From IMG/VR virus record IMGVR_UViG_3300017782_000230, positions 1-23,560 of that record: a stretch of 23,560 nucleotides of DNA; one strand, given 5' to 3'. A program made the translations under genes and the position numbers. The notes under the pieces were generated by a model. It did not search any database, had not been told where the DNA came from, and worked only from the letters and a program-made list of their open reading frames with translations. Shown here in pieces: positions 5,305 to 19,065 of the stretch (its first letter is position 1; each line of letters opens with the position of its first letter). The DNA comes from a virus.

Positions 5305-6573
5305 ATGAAAACAAGACAACAGGAAATCGCTAAAGTGATTAGCGACATTGAATCTTCTATAGAGAAATTAAAAGATTTTAACTCCTTTAAAGATTTACCA
5401 AAAGTGGAAGAAGATTCTTCTGCTGAATCTAGTGCAGAGTCTTCTGCTGAATCAAGTGCAGAATATTATTCTTCTTCGGAATCTAGTGCAGAGTCTTCTG
5501 CTGAATCAAAACCATTTAAAGACGAAGTTTTTTTTTCTCGTGGCTTAACAAAATCGTGGCCAAGATTCAAGTATCTCTCAGGGGAGATACACGGTAATTT
5601 GACTAAAACACGTACTATGGCATTGGATGACTCTAATGTCATTCATTCTCTTGGTTATAAGTCTGATATGCATATCAAGACTGACATTCTTTTAAATAGC
5701 ATTAATAGAGAACTACCAGGACATAAGGGTTTTATCGGAACTGTTGAAGCATCTAACGGAATTACATATTTCATGCCGGCATATTCCACCTCTATTGGAA
5801 AGTTAGATCGTGCCACCGGCAAAATTACTCTAGAAAATAAATTTCCTACAACGCCTCAGGTTAGGTCTGGTGCTGAAGGAAATAATGGTATCATTTATAT
5901 GCCATCATATACTAGAACTCTTAAAATATTTACATACGACACTAAAACTGGACAAACGGGCTCGTTTACACCTGAAAAACCTAAGCGAAGTGGGATTGGT
6001 GGTTGCAACCATATATGGGGAGCAGTTAAAGATAAAAAAGGAGAGATTTATATGCCTCAAGTTTTAGGTTCTAGTGTTGCTAAGATTGACAAAAATGGTG
6101 TTTTTAAATACCTCGAAGGTCCTCCTGCTACTTCTGGAGTTTCTGGGTGGACACATAAATACGTTGGAGCTATTTACGTAGAAGCTGTTAATAAAGTTTT
6201 TTGTTTACCTCGTCAAGGAAAAAAGATTTTGGTTATCAATTGTGTTAATGATACATATGAAGAAGTAGATCTCCCGGCCGACTATTTAAAAGTGGCAAAC
6301 AAGAATAAAAACTTTCACGGATTTTTAGGTCCTGATGGTTGGGTTTATAGCGCTTTCTGGGCTGACACGATATGCTTTAGAATTAATCCATACACTAATG
6401 AAATTCAATGGAGAGATTATGACTTTCATTTTATGGACGGCAAACCAACAGTGAAGGAAGGTTCAGGAATTATGAGTCTTGGAACCGGATACTCTACAGC
6501 AGCACTAGTTAAAAATAAAAGTGTATACTTAGGATTAGCTGGCACATCACGGGCTATTAAGCTTGAGTTTTAA
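5305..6573 (+). CDS. beta-propeller protein with a Ser-Ser-Ala-Glu repeat linker, probable virion or adhesion protein
   Basis: 422 aa. Residues 1-35 form a charged helix. Residues about 38-67 are a low-complexity linker of repeated SSAE units interrupted by YYSSSE. From about residue 85 on come at least five repeats of a blade-like pattern: NGITYFMPAYSTSIGKLD, NGIIYMPSYTRTLKIF, GEIYMPQVLGSSVAKID, NKVFCLPRQGKKILVIN, GWVYSAFWADTICFRIN. Each is a G-x-(I/V)-Y strand followed by a strand with I-D/N, typical of NHL/YncE-type propellers. No signal peptide. Late promoter control and a flexible linker suggest a structural or host-recognition protein attached to the particle (inference). It is followed 1 nt later by the next gene. 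Confidence 0.65.
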   Translation: MKTRQQEIAKVISDIESSIEKLKDFNSFKDLPKVEEDSSAESSAESSAESSAEYYSSSESSAESSAESKPFKDEVFFSRGLTKSWPRFKYLSGEIHGNLTKTRTMALDDSNVIHSLGYKSDMHIKTDILLNSINRELPGHKGFIGTVEASNGITYFMPAYSTSIGKLDRATGKITLENKFPTTPQVRSGAEGNNGIIYMPSYTRTLKIFTYDTKTGQTGSFTPEKPKRSGIGGCNHIWGAVKDKKGEIYMPQVLGSSVAKIDKNGVFKYLEGPPATSGVSGWTHKYVGAIYVEAVNKVFCLPRQGKKILVINCVNDTYEEVDLPADYLKVANKNKNFHGFLGPDGWVYSAFWADTICFRINPYTNEIQWRDYDFHFMDGKPTVKEGSGIMSLGTGYSTAALVKNKSVYLGLAGTSRAIKLEF

Positions 6574-7213: not shown

Positions 7214-7426
7214 ATGACCAAAGAATTCGAAGAGTGGAAAAAACTCAGACAACAAAAAATTGAAATTGCCCAGAAAGTTTACGCAATCGTAAACTATAAT
7301 CTTCCTCCGGAAGACGATGCTGGAACTATTCAAAACGTGTTAAACCTTGTTGATGATCTTACAGATTACGCAAAGCATTTAACTGAAATCGATCCAGTCA
7401 TTGATCAACGAGTACTTTCTATATAA
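7214..7426 (+). CDS. small hypothetical protein, 70 aa
   Basis: Helical and acidic (MTKEFEEWKKLRQQKIEIAQ...), no membrane segment, no known motif. First gene behind the promoter at 7156 and followed 1 nt later by the lysozyme gene, so an early-type promoter would also read into a lysis gene. Confidence 0.6.
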   Translation: MTKEFEEWKKLRQQKIEIAQKVYAIVNYNLPPEDDAGTIQNVLNLVDDLTDYAKHLTEIDPVIDQRVLSI

Positions 7427-7427
7427 T

Positions 7428-8111
7428 ATGAAAAACACACTAATTATCATTTTTACAGTTATCGCAGCTGGTTTTTATTTCGATCGAAAACCAAAAGTTG
7501 TTGAGACTGTAAAGGAAATCGAGACTATTAAGGAGATGACACCTATTCTCGTAAAGCCAAATTTTACTTTTGTAACTCATTCTATCGAAATGCCTGTTAA
7601 GCAAAAACCTTTGCTCGTTAAACCCAATGTTGTTCCTTTAGAACCTAAACCTAAATACGATTTTCACAACGAAATGTTAAAAGGTGTTAAATTTTTTGAA
7701 GGATTTAAACCTAAATCATATTATTGTTGTGCTGGTGTTAAGACTATTGGTTATGGGTGTACAGACAGAAAAATTGTTAATCTTGGAGTTATTACAAAAG
7801 ATAAAGCTTCTACTCTTTTATCAGATGAATTACGTTCTGTTCGTGAAAAAGTAAAAAAAGAAGTAAAGGTACCACTGACTGAATATCAGCTGTGTGCTCT
7901 TACTTCTTTTACATACAACTTAGGCCTTACTAATCTCAAAGAATTGATTAATAGCCCTAACCGTCTTAATGATGGAAACTACAAAAGTGTAGAAAAAATC
8001 ATGCCTCTTTATCGTAATGCAGGTGGCAAAATTAAAAAAGGTTTAGTTAAGCGGCGAGCTTGGGAAGTTTCTTTATGGAATGGTGAGCCGAATTGTTTAA
8101 TTACACACTAA
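7428..8111 (+). CDS. membrane-anchored GH24 phage lysozyme (endolysin), SAR-type candidate
   Basis: 227 aa from the ATG at 7428; the frame is open to 7401 without an ATG. The catalytic domain begins near residue 78: FFEGFKPKSYYCCAGVKTIGYG contains the GH24 triad as Glu91, eight residues, Cys100, five residues, Thr106. This is the known Glu-Asp/Cys-Thr arrangement with Cys in the Asp place. ALTSFTYNLG (a classical lysozyme signature) and a C-terminal RRAWEVSLW also fit. The N-terminus MKNTLIIIFTVIAAGFYF is a short, weakly hydrophobic segment followed by basic residues and a 55-residue Pro/Lys/Val linker. It could be a signal-anchor-release element or a permanent anchor. It would cut the glycan strands of the host wall from the periplasm. 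Six Cys residues allow disulfide control as in some SAR lysozymes (inference). Confidence 0.88.
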   Translation: MKNTLIIIFTVIAAGFYFDRKPKVVETVKEIETIKEMTPILVKPNFTFVTHSIEMPVKQKPLLVKPNVVPLEPKPKYDFHNEMLKGVKFFEGFKPKSYYCCAGVKTIGYGCTDRKIVNLGVITKDKASTLLSDELRSVREKVKKEVKVPLTEYQLCALTSFTYNLGLTNLKELINSPNRLNDGNYKSVEKIMPLYRNAGGKIKKGLVKRRAWEVSLWNGEPNCLITH

Positions 8112-8722: not shown

Positions 8723-9373
8723 ATGAAATTTAAAGGGAAAGACAATGTTGTCAAACAAGTTCAAAATAAACTTGGACTTAAAGCTGATGGAATCGATGGT
8801 CCAAACACATGGAAAATGATTTGGGAAAATTTAGTTCATGACGGAAAGGGAGAGCCTGAAAAACCTGAACCTCCAGTTGTTGATCTTAAAGAAGCTATTA
8901 ACCTTAAAGACGATTACGATGAAGTTTATAAAGCAAGTCCAAATCAATCTGGTTCAATTAGACCAAAGTTTATTGTACTTCATCATAGTAGTGGAAGCCA
9001 CAATGGAACAAAATCTTGGATTTTAAACAAGGCTTCACAAGTTAGTTATCATTACCTAATTGCACCCGATGGTTCTAGAACACAATTCGTTTATGACAAA
9101 AAAAGAGCATGGCACGCTGGAAGATCTTCTTGGAAAGGTGTAAGTGGTTTAAACGGACATAGTGTTGGCATTTCTTTTTATGGAGATACAAACAAAAGGA
9201 CACCCTCATCAGTTGAAATTGATTCTGCTGCTAAAAAATGCAAGTACCTTATGGACAAATTTGGTTTTGGCGTTGAAAACGTTATAACGCACAAAATGAT
9301 TTCACCTGGTAGAAAAAACGATCCTTCAGACGAAACTTACCAAAAGGTTATTGATCGTATAAAAGAGCTTTAA
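8723..9373 (+). CDS. N-acetylmuramoyl-L-alanine amidase endolysin with N-terminal peptidoglycan-binding domain
   Basis: 216 aa. Residues 1-40 match a short peptidoglycan-binding domain (VQNKLGLKADGIDGPNTW). A Pro-rich linker follows. Residues 80-216 match the Amidase_2/PGRP fold: FIVLHHSSG (zinc His near 87-88), SYHYLIAPDGSRTQ, AWHAGRSSW, GHSVGISFYG, and ITHKMISPGRKNDP, where His190, Lys198 and Asp200 fill the ligand and catalytic positions. The enzyme should cut the bond between muramic acid and the stem peptide. No signal peptide, so release needs a holin. The stop codon overlaps that of the convergent DUF1501 gene, with no terminator between. Confidence 0.9.
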   Translation: MKFKGKDNVVKQVQNKLGLKADGIDGPNTWKMIWENLVHDGKGEPEKPEPPVVDLKEAINLKDDYDEVYKASPNQSGSIRPKFIVLHHSSGSHNGTKSWILNKASQVSYHYLIAPDGSRTQFVYDKKRAWHAGRSSWKGVSGLNGHSVGISFYGDTNKRTPSSVEIDSAAKKCKYLMDKFGFGVENVITHKMISPGRKNDPSDETYQKVIDRIKEL

Positions 9374-10566
9374 GCTATAACCTTTTTTATAATTTCACCT
9401 TTGTCGGCTACTTCAAATGGTCGACCCGATGGTGATGAGTGTTTTAATAAAACATCTAAACCTGCTAAGTGTGCAATAGTGGCATTAACATCTGAGATCG
9501 TAACAGGGTCTGAGATGACTTTAGATGCGGTTTTATCGGTTTTACCATATACATAACCGCCTTTAACTCCAGCACCAATCATGACCGTTGAGTAAGCTTG
9601 AGGGTGATGGTCACGTCCATCATTAACATTTATGTTTGGTGTTCTTCCAAATTCAGTAGCAATGACTACTAAGGTTGAATCTAACAATCCTTCTTCTTCT
9701 AAATTAGAAACTAAGCTGCTTACAGCGTCGTCTAACTCCTTAAGTTTATTGTCTAATTTATCGAAGTTTTCTGTGTGTGTATCCCACCCACCATTATTGA
9801 CTTCGATAAATCTAACATCACCTTGTACTAGTCTTTTAGCTAAGAGTAACCCTTGTCCTAAACGCGTATCTCCATAGCGCTCTCTATTTTTTTGAGGTTC
9901 TTTTGATATGTCAAATAGTTCTAAGTCTTTTGACTTAAGAAACTCGACAGTGTTATCGTAAAATTGGTTATATGAACTAGCTATAGGAGAACTAATGTGT
10001 TTATTAACTTCTCTAAGTAAAGCCATTCTTTCGTTTAATTTATTATCGGTTTTAGCGTTTTGTAATCCAGACTTAGGATCAACAATTGGTAATGGAGCTT
10101 TCACCTTTGGTAAAAAACCAGAACCTGGATGAGAAGATGCGCCAGAAACTAATACAAAATCTGGAATAGTTTTACCCCTATCAGATAAGTGTGAAATCCA
10201 TGAACCAAGTGATGGGTGTGTAATAGTACCAAGTTGTTTATATGAAGTTCTATTCAAATATTGTGCTTGCTGGTGAGCTCCTGTTTTAGATGTTGTTGAT
10301 CTGATTACCGAAGCTTTATGCATTACTTCAGCTAATTTAGGAAGACGGTTGCCTATTTCAAAGTCAGCGCTTGTAGAAATTTTTGTAGTATTTCCTTTTA
10401 CTCCTTCGTCATCCTTTGGATCAAAAGAATCAATGTGGCTCATACCGCCATCTAAGCAAATGAAAATAATATTTTTAGCTTTAGTGTCAGCAATAGGTTT
10501 TGCATTAAGAGTTTTAACACCATACGTTGCTGCAGCAAGTGATTGAATAAATATACGTCTGTCCAT
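9370..10566 (-). CDS. DUF1501 family protein, Tat-type signal, alkaline phosphatase/sulfatase-like fold
   Basis: 398 aa. The N-terminus MDRRIFIQSLAAATYGV has twin arginines followed by a hydrophobic stretch, as in Tat signals of this family. Family landmarks: NIIFICLDGGMSHIDSFDPK (residues 32-51), TGAHQQA and HPSLGSWISHL (95-126), GGWDTHTENF (259-268), VIATEFGRTPNIN...GRDHHP (301-322), MIGAGVKGGYVYGKTD (329-344). DUF1501 proteins belong to the alkaline phosphatase-like superfamily, so Asp and His residues in these motifs could bind metal; the reaction is unknown. Length is close to the family norm, and no truncation is seen. It starts 2 nt after the stop of the DUF1549 gene, forming an operon typical of Planctomycetes and Verrucomicrobia. 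Its presence in a phage is unusual. Confidence 0.88.
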   Translation of the reverse strand: MDRRIFIQSLAAATYGVKTLNAKPIADTKAKNIIFICLDGGMSHIDSFDPKDDEGVKGNTTKISTSADFEIGNRLPKLAEVMHKASVIRSTTSKTGAHQQAQYLNRTSYKQLGTITHPSLGSWISHLSDRGKTIPDFVLVSGASSHPGSGFLPKVKAPLPIVDPKSGLQNAKTDNKLNERMALLREVNKHISSPIASSYNQFYDNTVEFLKSKDLELFDISKEPQKNRERYGDTRLGQGLLLAKRLVQGDVRFIEVNNGGWDTHTENFDKLDNKLKELDDAVSSLVSNLEEEGLLDSTLVVIATEFGRTPNINVNDGRDHHPQAYSTVMIGAGVKGGYVYGKTDKTASKVISDPVTISDVNATIAHLAGLDVLLKHSSPSGRPFEVADKGEIIKKVIA

Positions 10567-10568
10567 AA

Positions 10569-12308
10569 TTACATTATAAGTTTAAATTCGTGTGAGTTAA
10601 GAAGAACCCAGACAATGTCTGAAAATTCAGCGTTTTTAAATGCAACCTTCTCTTCTTTTGAAGGCTTTCTTCCGATATAAGATGTAAAAATATAATCAAC
10701 TGCTTTATCTCTATTGAACGTTACAAGTTTTTTAGCGATTTGGCCTTTATCGTTCATAAGCTCTGCAGTTACTCTACCGTTCATTAACGTGAGTATTTGT
10801 GTGATATTAGCATCCTGATCTCCAGTTTCAATTAGCTCTCTATCAGATCTACCAAACTCTAACATAAAATTAGAATTACGACCTTCAAATATATTTGATG
10901 AACGAATCATCATTAAACCACCGACTTTAGGAGCTCCTTCGTAGTAACTACCTTGAAACTTTTGATATCGATCATAAATTTTAAGAGCTCGTTTAGCATT
11001 TAGTGTTTTAACATCTGGAAACATATTTACATACTCTTGTCTACGATCTTTTGGTTGCCATTTATCAACATCTCCTGTATAAAGAGTTACGATACTATCC
11101 CAAAGTTGGGCAGAAGTCATCCGCCTTTGTTTAGGGCCTCTAAATTCATCTTTACCGTCTGTCGTTGCTGCGTAGAACTTAGTGTTATAGAGTACCTTAT
11201 TAAATGCTCTTGTATCATACTTAAAATCCTTTAAAGTTCGAATAAGATACTCCATAAGCCGATCGTTGCGGCTTTCTCTAAGCTCATCAAACTCTGCAAT
11301 GTCATTTAAATTATCAATAAGTTTAAACCCCATTGCTTTAAACCATAAACGGTTAACAATATTAGCTGCAAACGAAGGATGGTTTTCACTAATAATCCAA
11401 TCAGTAAAACTTTGCCTTAAACCTTCACGCTTTCTTTTTTCCTTTACGTAATCGCCGACAGCAGTTTTTCCTTCTACAATTTCACCAGGATCTCCATCTT
11501 TATATTTGTAATCGTGAGGAAGTTTGAGAACCTTTTTAAGATTGTTGTCAACATGGTTTCGGTACCCACCGACCTGCCAAAATTGTCCAATACGATTGAT
11601 AGATCCCTTTTCTTTACCAGACTTATCTAATTCTTGGCACTCTTTTCTAAGCTCCTGATAATGCTTATTGTCTTCTTTTTTTGCTCGCGTATCAACAGTA
11701 GTAAAGAAAGCTGTCATTTCATAATATTCCATTTGTATCCAATCGTCAAATGGGTGGTCATGGCATTGTGCACAAGATATATTCATTCCAGCAAATGCTT
11801 GAAATGTGTTTGATACATTGTCAAGTAACATACCTTCATCTCTAAGAAAGTATCCTACAGCAGGATTAGTAAAAATCGTACCCTCAGCAGTGAGAATAGA
11901 TTTAACAAATTGGTCGTATGGAGTATTATTTTTAATTTCGTTTTTAATCCACGCTATGTATGTTTCGCCTGTTACATTATTAAGAATTTTTTTCTTAACT
12001 CTTAAAAGGTCAGCGTAAAAATTAAACGTAGACTCGACGTATCCTTGTGAGTTAATTAAATCATTAATGAGTTTCTCTTTATTAGGATTTTCTAAAAACG
12101 ATGTTGTTTCGTTAAAAGTAGGTATACGGCCGACAATATCTAAATATGCACGCCTTACAAATACTTCGTTAGAAGCTTTTTGAGGCATAGGAACCTTTCT
12201 ATAACTAAGGTCCTTTGCTATAATTTCGTCAATCTTTAAACTATGATTGACATCCTTTGAAAATAAGCTTGTAGCTAAAGCTAAAATTAGTATTCCAAAT
12301 TTAACCAT
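10569..12308 (-). CDS. DUF1549/DUF1553 protein with cytochrome c-type CxxCH motif
   Basis: 579 aa. Signal peptide at residues 1-17 (MVKFGILILALATSLFS). DUF1549 starts near 35: FVRRAYLDIVGRIPTFNET (50-68), WIKNEIKNNTPYDQFVKSIL, and AFAGMNISCAQCHDHPFDDW (171-190), where Cys179, Cys182 and His183 form a heme-c-like site. The C-terminal DUF1553 begins near 300 (FTDWIISENHPSFAANIVNRLWF, GRNSNFMLEFGRSDRE) and runs to about 575. Host relatives are often longer, with added cytochrome or concanavalin-like domains, so this is a compact version. These proteins are exported and paired with DUF1501; function is undetermined, though polysaccharide or sulfate-ester degradation has been suggested for such clusters. 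The start codon sits exactly at the expected start of a phage late promoter, so the gene is wired into late expression. Confidence 0.9.
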   Translation of the reverse strand: MVKFGILILALATSLFSKDVNHSLKIDEIIAKDLSYRKVPMPQKASNEVFVRRAYLDIVGRIPTFNETTSFLENPNKEKLINDLINSQGYVESTFNFYADLLRVKKKILNNVTGETYIAWIKNEIKNNTPYDQFVKSILTAEGTIFTNPAVGYFLRDEGMLLDNVSNTFQAFAGMNISCAQCHDHPFDDWIQMEYYEMTAFFTTVDTRAKKEDNKHYQELRKECQELDKSGKEKGSINRIGQFWQVGGYRNHVDNNLKKVLKLPHDYKYKDGDPGEIVEGKTAVGDYVKEKRKREGLRQSFTDWIISENHPSFAANIVNRLWFKAMGFKLIDNLNDIAEFDELRESRNDRLMEYLIRTLKDFKYDTRAFNKVLYNTKFYAATTDGKDEFRGPKQRRMTSAQLWDSIVTLYTGDVDKWQPKDRRQEYVNMFPDVKTLNAKRALKIYDRYQKFQGSYYEGAPKVGGLMMIRSSNIFEGRNSNFMLEFGRSDRELIETGDQDANITQILTLMNGRVTAELMNDKGQIAKKLVTFNRDKAVDYIFTSYIGRKPSKEEKVAFKNAEFSDIVWVLLNSHEFKLIM

Positions 12309-12313
12309 AGAGT

Positions 12314-12321
12314 TATTTATA
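12314..12321 (-). promoter_or_regulatory. T4-type late promoter TATAAATA of the DUF1549-DUF1501 operon
   Basis: On the minus strand this is an exact TATAAATA (plus strand TATTTATA). The ATG at 12308 begins 6 nt past the octamer, so the mRNA should be leaderless. Confidence 0.8.
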
Positions 12322-12352
12322 AAAAAAGCCGAGGTATTATTACCTCGGCTTT
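12322..12352 (-). terminator. rho-independent terminator of the minus-strand lysis cluster
   Basis: A perfect 12-bp stem, AAAGCCGAGGTA (12325-12336) / TACCTCGGCTTT (12341-12352), with a 4-nt loop. Read on the minus strand, it runs into a T tract (A run at 12321-12327 on plus). It separates the lysis cluster from the DUF1549-DUF1501 operon, whose promoter starts right behind it. Confidence 0.9.
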
Positions 12353-12362
12353 GCTTATTTTT

Positions 12363-12605
12363 TTACTTGTTATAATACAACTTTCTCTCTAAATCTCTAT
12401 ATCTTTTATCAGAATGCCAGATTTCTTCTAATTGAGGTGTATAAACACCTTCTTTAGTTTGAACTGTCGTTCCTGGAGACAAGGTCAGTGTAGATGGCTG
12501 ATATATGTTCAAAGTGCTGTTTTTCAGCGATGAGTTGCTGCTGCAAGAGGTCAGCACGCTCAGTAGCAGCGCTAGTCCGCTTATCACGTAAACTTTCGAT
12601 TTCAT
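12363..12605 (-). CDS. Rz1-like outer-membrane lipoprotein (o-spanin candidate)
   Basis: 80 aa with a lipoprotein signal: MKSKVYVISGLALLLSVLTSC, lipobox LTSC with Cys near residue 21, then Ser/Asn-rich residues. The mature part is about 60 residues and ends in charged KRYRDLERKLYYNK. The gene starts inside the preceding 88-aa gene in another frame and runs past its end, the classical overlap of Rz/Rz1 pairs. As an o-spanin it would sit in the outer membrane and join the inner-membrane partner to fuse the membranes at lysis. Assigned by architecture and lipobox, not by sequence match. Confidence 0.65.
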   Translation of the reverse strand: MKSKVYVISGLALLLSVLTSCSSNSSLKNSTLNIYQPSTLTLSPGTTVQTKEGVYTPQLEEIWHSDKRYRDLERKLYYNK

Positions 12606-12720
12606 TGATTATGCTTTGTTGCTTATCTCTAGACTTTTCAGTTATATCATAATAGAATGCTTTATTGCGCAATTGCAAATAAGCATTTAAAGCAGATAGT
12701 ACTGTTTTGATTAAGCCCAT
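12454..12720 (-). CDS. spanin-like coiled-coil protein (i-spanin candidate)
   Basis: 88 aa. The N-terminal helix MGLIKTVLSALNAYLQL is moderately hydrophobic. It is followed by a long charged helix (SRDKQQSIINEIESLRDKRTSAATERADLLQQQLIAEKQ in parts) and a short tail. I recall similar small proteins next to holin genes in marine T4-like phages. With the overlapping lipoprotein gene it makes a plausible Rz/Rz1-type pair, but the N-terminal helix is weaker than a normal inner-membrane anchor, so the spanin role is uncertain. It begins 14 nt after the holin-like gene. Confidence 0.55.
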   Translation of the reverse strand: MGLIKTVLSALNAYLQLRNKAFYYDITEKSRDKQQSIINEIESLRDKRTSAATERADLLQQQLIAEKQHFEHISAIYTDLVSRNDSSN

Positions 12721-12734
12721 AAATCAAAAGGTCG

Positions 12735-12929
12735 TTACTTTTTTTCGCCTTTGTCTTTAGCTTTACCAATGTTAAGAGCAAATACGTCGATAACACTATA
12801 AACCTTTGCAAGGATAGATCCTTTTTTTGGTGTAGGTGTAATAGCGGCAATAGAGGATGCAAGTGCAACAGCTGCAGCTAAAACTCCGAACCATGGTTGA
12901 TCTTGGATGAATGTAATTAAGAATTCCAT
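12735..12929 (-). CDS. holin-like membrane protein
   Basis: 64 aa: MEFLITFIQDQPWFGVLAAAVALASSIAAITPTPKKGS..., with one Ala-rich membrane helix (about 13-31), then a TPTPKKGS turn, a second amphipathic helix (KVYSVIDVFALNIGKAKDK) and a basic tail. This PTPKKGS-(x)n-ALNIGKAK pattern is one I associate with putative holins of marine phages. First gene of the minus-strand lysis cluster, behind a TATAAATA box. It would release the amidase by forming holes in the inner membrane. Confidence 0.7.
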   Translation of the reverse strand: MEFLITFIQDQPWFGVLAAAVALASSIAAITPTPKKGSILAKVYSVIDVFALNIGKAKDKGEKK

Positions 12930-18690: not shown

Positions 18691-19065
18691 ATGAAAAATA
18701 AACTAATAACACTAATTGTTGTATCTCTCACAATGGGAGTTTGCGCAGCTGACCATCACAGCAAAGATGGAAAACACAAGGTTAAACCTGCAAAAGTTGA
18801 TGGGAAGCGTAAGCTACCTCCACATATGGCTAAGTTCGATAAGAACAAAGATGGAAAACTTTGCGAAGCCGAACGTAAGGTTGCTGCAGCCGCTAGACAG
18901 AAAATGCTTATCAAGAAATTTGATAAAGATGGAGATGGTAAATTAAACTCTGAAGAACGAAAAGCAGCGATTGCAGCTACTGAAGCTATGAAAAAGCGTA
19001 AAGGTAAAGGCAAGCTTCCTAAAGGTGCAAAGGGTAAAGTTAAACCTACTCCTAAAAAAGGCTAA
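18691..19065 (+). CDS. exported EF-hand calcium-binding protein
   Basis: 124 aa. Signal peptide MKNKLITLIVVSLTMGVCAA. Two canonical EF-hand loops: DKNKDGKLCEAE (50-61) and DKDGDGKLNSEE (78-89), with Asp/Asn at positions 1, 3 and 5, Gly at 6 and Glu at 12. The rest is very basic (Lys-rich, GKGKLPKGAKGKVKPTPKKG at the end). Small secreted EF-hand proteins are common in Planctomycetes and Verrucomicrobia, rare in phages. It lies 13 nt after gp32, likely in the same transcript, and ends before a strong terminator. A host origin is likely (inference). Confidence 0.85.
   Translation: MKNKLITLIVVSLTMGVCAADHHSKDGKHKVKPAKVDGKRKLPPHMAKFDKNKDGKLCEAERKVAAAARQKMLIKKFDKDGDGKLNSEERKAAIAATEAMKKRKGKGKLPKGAKGKVKPTPKKG

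Follow-up and report, generated by a model that had tools for sequence, protein, structure and literature searches.

Phage lysis cassettes bring together a holin, an endolysin and Rz/Rz1 spanins, and we know of none that carries a DUF1549 or DUF1501 gene; to our knowledge, hardly any T4-like phages of Verrucomicrobiota and their relatives have been cultured. P8625, presented as the first lytic phage from this phylum, has a particle with a long tail (PMC4642752). In cells, PSCyt2-PSD1 (DUF1549/DUF1553) genes paired with DUF1501 genes are typical of bacteria of the Planctomycetes-Verrucomicrobia-Chlamydiae (PVC) type. The genome of Rhodopirellula contains each PSC2/PSD1 domain 41 times, and one PSC2/PSD1 gene has been suggested to be under the control of a stress-induced extracytoplasmic sigma factor there (PMC2754498), which is in line with a role in the envelope. 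The present analysis concerns a DUF1549/DUF1553-DUF1501 pair encoded by a marine virus, in a stretch of DNA (the window) that comprises the entire IMG/VR record IMGVR_UViG_3300017782_000230 (23,560 bases). An earlier note, made from the sequence alone, had described it as an operon carried by a T4-like phage, and this observation is confirmed. The domains themselves and the carriage of host-derived cargo by phages were already known; the unexpected family, its repeated capture and its placement next to a lysis cassette are new.

Both open reading frames are intact at the positions first read from the sequence, with 2 bases between them. The protein encoded first matches PF07583 (PSCyt2/DUF1549; 5.5e-40, 138 bits) and PF07587 (PSD1/DUF1553; 6.2e-20, 72 bits), both above the gathering score, and the second matches PF07394 (DUF1501) over 390/390 profile positions (E=4.9e-95, 319 bits versus a gathering cut-off of 27). 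The motifs that the earlier note had read in the two proteins are all present. The CxxCH of the DUF1549/DUF1553 protein corresponds to C179, C182 and H183 (residues 179-183); it is invariant in 74 sequences and present in 83/83 viral DUF1549 copies longer than 500 amino acids (aa), and, going by the name of the family, it may be a site for heme c. In the DUF1501 protein, GGWDTH lies at residues 259-264 and GRDHHP at 317-322. Sequence features support the export of both: the DUF1549/DUF1553 protein begins with a Sec-like signal, judged by eye, and the arginine pair at residues 3-4 of the DUF1501 protein indicates export by the twin-arginine translocation (Tat) system.

The residence of the pair in T4-like phages is documented by its surroundings. 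In the window it has T4-type genes on either side, namely those for the lysozyme and the amidase and those for gp59 (helicase loader), gp32, the baseplate hub, the tail tube and gp2. The closest genome for gp32 (58%) and gp2 (49%) is that of C48C1 (T4-like, Kyanoviridae, OQ984149), which has the same order of gp32, hub, tube, gp2 and gp4 and a colinear gp32-to-gp4 block but, unlike the window, carries neither DUF1501 nor DUF1549; by megablast, the window DNA matched no GenBank phage. In IMG/VR, querying with the window protein gave 24 loci, its profile gave 33, and 39 were obtained for a second family; altogether, 89 distinct viral DUF1549 sequences (83 of them above 500 aa) were collected, and for DUF1501 there were 110 confirmed relatives. 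Viral DUF1549 genes are nearly always succeeded by a DUF1501 gene in the same orientation, and this held for each of the 38 phage neighbourhoods examined. The T4 major capsid gene (gp23) was found on 9/28 of the first carrier contigs, which reach 222 kb, on 5/38 further ones and in 0/14 control genomes, and gp55-like late sigma factors on four long carrier contigs. Large carriers of the second clade have phage replication genes, and terminases in 12/22 tested records.

Taking into account that the pair genes are of host type, that PHROGs represents neither protein and that tblastn against 50,697 GenBank phage records gave no match, it might be argued that the window is a chimeric contig or host DNA taken for viral. 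This explanation is hardly credible. The arrangement of the window recurs in the relative L002, with synteny across many contigs of independent metagenomes; gp23 and gp55 lie on the same contigs as the pair; base composition in the pair region is continuous with that of the phage; and the stop codons of DUF1501 and the amidase gene overlap at 9370-9373, a detail that refines the earlier note. That note had named a phage-host chimera as the finding that would overturn it, and the independent contigs and the gp23/gp55 linkage reject chimerism and misassembly. The literature search, which left subscription papers and preprints outside, found no paper on phage copies of the pair, and in the PMC set the terms DUF1501, DUF1549 and phage never came together in one paper; a mention of DUF1501 in Pseudomonas phage ZC03 was discarded as a weak match of a 61-aa protein (PMC5418858).

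As for the origin of the pair, a search covering 84,980 species left a set of 80 best cellular relatives, every one of them from Planctomycetota, Verrucomicrobiota, Lentisphaerota or Acidobacteriota, and four PVC/Acidobacteria genomes contain 15, 67, 25 and 65 copies of PSCyt2. Three long phage contigs have one copy each, and the domain was above cut-off in 0/14 control genomes. The characterization of the pair as a highly multiplied PVC hallmark is thus borne out. Cellular pairs are usually adjacent, DUF1549 then DUF1501, and share with the phage pair its domains, order and strand, the CxxCH and the conserved DUF1501 residues. However, cellular DUF1549 proteins mostly have 640-850 aa, versus a compact ~580 aa in the phages of the clade to which the window belongs, where, unlike in cells, the pair is single-copy and driven by a late promoter beside lysis genes. 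Identity between the window and its best-ranked cellular relative is 35% for DUF1549 and 42% for DUF1501.

In both protein trees, the window falls in a phage-only clade of 31 viral rows; the trees come from quick searches and contain some long branches, which makes deep placement tentative. The support of this group in the Shimodaira-Hasegawa-like approximate likelihood ratio test was 83 and 89 in the first trees of the two genes and 96 in an enlarged DUF1549 tree. A second phage group joins two marine Opitutia (Verrucomicrobiota) genomes with a support of 99, and the two Opitutia contigs carry ordinary cellular genes. The approximately unbiased test rejects a single all-phage clade (p=8.2e-7; p=0.006 with the two Opitutia copies included); therefore, the pair entered phages at least twice. 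In the subgroup L189/L191/L193, which sits with an Opitutia copy (identity of L189, 88% for DUF1501 and 72% for DUF1549), the proximity suggests a more recent exchange, in either direction.

Once captured, the pair has been maintained. Ratios of nonsynonymous to synonymous substitution (dN/dS) among phage copies are 0.04-0.10 for DUF1549 and 0.02-0.06 for DUF1501, approximate values from Nei-Gojobori (NG86) estimates at dS of 0.36-1.4, and they argue strongly for purifying selection; relatives show no decay of the reading frames. The T4-type box TATAAATA occurs 10 times in the window versus 3.5 expected (0/100 shuffles reach 10), and lies exactly 5 nt before the ATG of the pair in 17/24 phages of the window clade, while CATAAATA occupies the identical spacing in three more. 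This spacing is kept while the neighbouring sequence varies; no row of clades B and C has a box at this position. Together with the gp55 homologues of relatives, the box at fixed spacing points to a T4-type late transcription unit. An intrinsic terminator, also present in L002, lies between the o-spanin-like gene and TATAAATA, with its T-run running into the box, a point that sharpens the earlier reading; the hairpin is thus placed so as to insulate the pair from the upstream spanin and holin genes. The T4 late box spans about -13 to -6, and transcription of the pair is therefore predicted to begin (+1) with the A of its start codon, which would give a leaderless late mRNA; a loose Shine-Dalgarno-like motif precedes just 4/31 starts in the window. 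Adaptation to late expression, as the earlier note had claimed, fits the box at its fixed spacing, and recent acquisition of a fragment is rejected by the dN/dS values, the conserved promoter spacing and the overlapping stop codons.

Boxes TATAAATA exactly 5 nt before an ATG were also seen at L010 8268(+), L010 14820(-), L006 12985(+) and L269 11827(+); the genes behind them are a holin-like gene, an EF-hand gene, a downstream gene and a probable structural gene. It is only suggestive that carrier phages may use leaderless late mRNAs more widely, few boxes being near structural genes.

The AlphaFold2 (AF2) model of the DUF1501 protein (predicted local distance difference test, pLDDT, 90.8; predicted template-modelling score, pTM, 0.88) has the fold of the alkaline-phosphatase/sulfatase superfamily. 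When compared with the PDB by Foldseek, nearly all of the 50 best matches listed were sulfatases or related hydrolases, and the overall fold resembles that of formylglycine sulfatases and the alkaline-phosphatase superfamily (1p49, 4miv, 6bia) with E down to 8e-9 and a template-modelling score of ~0.4. Unlike these sulfatases, which have a C/S-x-P-x-R signature, just 1/120 phage DUF1501 sequences shows one. A canonical formylglycine sulfatase is rejected on the absence of this active-site signature and the variability of residues 94/95. By sequence, the PDB gave nothing meaningful for DUF1501, the top matches being designed helical repeats along one helical stretch, nor for DUF1549/DUF1553. 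The model of the latter is all-helical and confident (pLDDT 91.5, pTM 0.91), and fold searches yielded nothing significant, either among the solved structures of the PDB or among the viral ones of BFVD; a weak local likeness to phycobilisome-linker/DUF4214 helices was seen.

Additional DUF1501 genes were also noticed. In L255, L259 and L264-L266, and in L256 and L261-L263, 2-4 of them lie close by, mostly in tandem, with no DUF1549 within the fetched stretch of these contigs. Some phages of the window clade have a deeply diverged extra paralogue (L010:12936-14357; G007:C1:4955-6217), which in L010 sits directly downstream of the pair.

It can be proposed, with an even chance of being right, that the two genes form a functional late operon in a T4-like phage infecting a PVC bacterium, most probably one of the marine Verrucomicrobiota, and that their products act on the envelope or on surface glycans, timed with lysis in the lineage of the window. 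The phage lineage would have taken up the host pair as a unit; it has kept the pair under purifying selection, and late transcription would start from the TATAAATA box. The DUF1549/DUF1553 protein would leave by Sec and may gain covalent heme at its CxxCH, and the DUF1501 protein would be exported by Tat in the folded state. The two would then work jointly on envelope or surface-glycan material, either in the periplasm or on the outside of the cell, DUF1501 as a sulfatase/phosphatase-fold metalloenzyme and DUF1549/DUF1553 as a redox or binding partner. In the window lineage, the pair, timed with the holin, spanins and endolysins, would help to loosen or dismantle the PVC envelope for release.

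The genes around the pair (Table 1) are the basis of this last step. In the window clade, a holin-like gene and two overlapping spanin-like genes, which by sequence have the Rz/Rz1 arrangement, lie directly upstream of the pair in the same orientation, and beyond them comes a divergent amidase gene; in the window itself the amidase gene is on the other side of the pair. Among the neighbourhoods of this clade, 17 have a holin-like gene and 17 an amidase gene, an o-spanin gene occurs in 16 and an i-spanin gene in 14, and in some members (L006, L010) a phage lysozyme gene (PF18013) abuts the pair. The pair departs from known phage lysis cassettes in having a separate promoter, placed past a terminator.

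Several points weigh against this proposal. The link to a PVC host is indirect, consisting of PVC-type genes and of a sister phage clade nested with Opitutia, and the biochemical function of neither family is known (PMC5615132). No conserved Ser/Thr nucleophile was found in DUF1501, where residues 94/95, the presumed nucleophile place, assigned by sequence reasoning only, are variable; with this residue and the CxPxR motif missing, catalysis is not assured, and for the same reason the trimming of sulfated glycans is to be regarded as a possibility. Linkage to lysis genes is absent in clades B and C, so that a universal linkage is rejected and release cannot be the universal role of the pair. 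In other phage clades its neighbours are replication genes such as gp32, or it lies close to nrdA/nrdB; because nucleotide-metabolism, replication and glycan-synthesis genes are the neighbours there, its core function may be envelope remodelling during infection instead of release. Of what the earlier note had inferred, PVC character, phage residence, selection and late promoter are supported. Linkage to lysis genes holds for the window clade, and action at release would not extend to the others; the suggested functions stay conjectural, since trimming of sulfated glycans would agree with the sulfatase-superfamily fold, but signature and nucleophile are missing.

The lack of a conserved nucleophile at the canonical helix start could also mean that a catalytically altered alkaline-phosphatase-fold protein and its partner form an exported binding, structural or virion component, the more so as DUF1549/DUF1553 has no recognised enzyme fold and shows the weak likeness to linker helices. 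This is improbable: across 86 DUF1501 sequences from cells and phages, H98, H117, D262 and H320 never vary and H264 and E305 hardly do, a pattern typical of a metal site, and a Tat start is at odds with a virion protein.

Export and late expression would equally suit a role in superinfection exclusion or surface masking, in which surface glycans or receptors are changed so that the infected cell or lysis debris stops binding progeny or competing phages. In its favour, 10 window-clade neighbourhoods have, close to the pair, a gene like those of outer-membrane beta-barrels, and in clade B phages GDP-sugar and glycosyltransferase genes adjoin the pair. Exclusion genes are usually expressed early, however, whereas the promoter of the pair is late, and no receptor-related linkage is common to all clades, which makes it unlikely. 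The location of the pair among nucleotide or replication genes in clades B and C would also agree with a classical auxiliary metabolic gene boosting periplasmic redox, sulfur, phosphorus or glycan scavenging by the host during infection. In hosts, PSCyt genes often adjoin sulfatases, and a role in carbohydrate metabolism has been proposed (PMC5615132). We consider this quite unlikely, since the late box of the window clade lies beside lysis genes, at a time when metabolic gain is small, and each phage has one DUF1549 copy versus 15-67 in cells.

Table 1. Position of the gene pair, its control elements and nearby genes in the window.
Feature	Position	Strand	Basis or remark
Phage lysozyme	7401..8111	(+)	Pfam 4e-30
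N-acetylmuramoyl-L-alanine amidase (endolysin)	8723..9373	(+)	Pfam Amidase_2 2e-25
DUF1501 gene, 398 aa	9370..10566	(-)	Tat-type RR start; PF07394; AF2 and Foldseek fold; residue conservation
DUF1549/DUF1553 (PSCyt2-PSD1) gene, 579 aa	10569..12308	(-)	Pfam; CAQCH; AF2 all-helical fold
T4-type late promoter box TATAAATA	12314..12321	(-)	5 nt before DUF1549/DUF1553 ATG
Intrinsic-terminator hairpin	12325..12352	(-)	dG -22.7 kcal/mol, z -6.2; terminator scan
o-spanin-like lipoprotein, lipobox LTSC	12363..12605	(-)	Out-of-frame overlap with i-spanin-like gene
i-spanin-like protein, coiled-coil type	12454..12720	(-)	Overlaps o-spanin-like gene
Holin-like small membrane protein, phrog_9685 (function unknown)	12735..12929	(-)	PHROG match
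EF-hand protein	18691..19065	(+)	Pfam; relatives with signal-like N-terminus

Other features of the neighbourhoods deserve mention. In L208-L212, L215 and L219, the pair lies ~2 kb downstream of gp32 and not beside lysis genes, and in L180 and L186 (clade B) it comes after a run of nucleotide-sugar and glycosyltransferase-like genes, identified by eye. The beta-barrel-like gene is represented by L017:12995-13495 (PF13505, below cut-off). The EF-hand protein, PVC-like by eye, has homologues in 9 relatives, where their genes come after the pair and run in the opposite direction (e.g., L010:14461-14820 and L136:13648-14121). A protein with no Pfam match (window 5305-6573; L006:12931-14412) is encoded directly downstream of DUF1501 in L006 and L007 and far away in the window.

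Few genes of PVC bacteria are multiplied as much, or understood as poorly, as the pairs of PSCyt2-PSD1 and DUF1501 genes. Tentatively, and with more doubt than confidence, it can be suggested that phages of these bacteria carry in DUF1549/1553 plus DUF1501 a dedicated module for dismantling or remodelling the envelope, beyond holin, endolysin and spanins, and matched to the PVC cell surface. If this is true, its repeated capture would expose the function of a pair of which PVC genomes have tens of copies. The compact, single-copy, late-expressed phage version, captured at least twice and strongly selected, offers a minimal, tractable form of the system, and suggests that its target is the cell envelope. 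Moreover, the pair can serve to recognize, by sequence, T4-like phages of Verrucomicrobiota and related groups.

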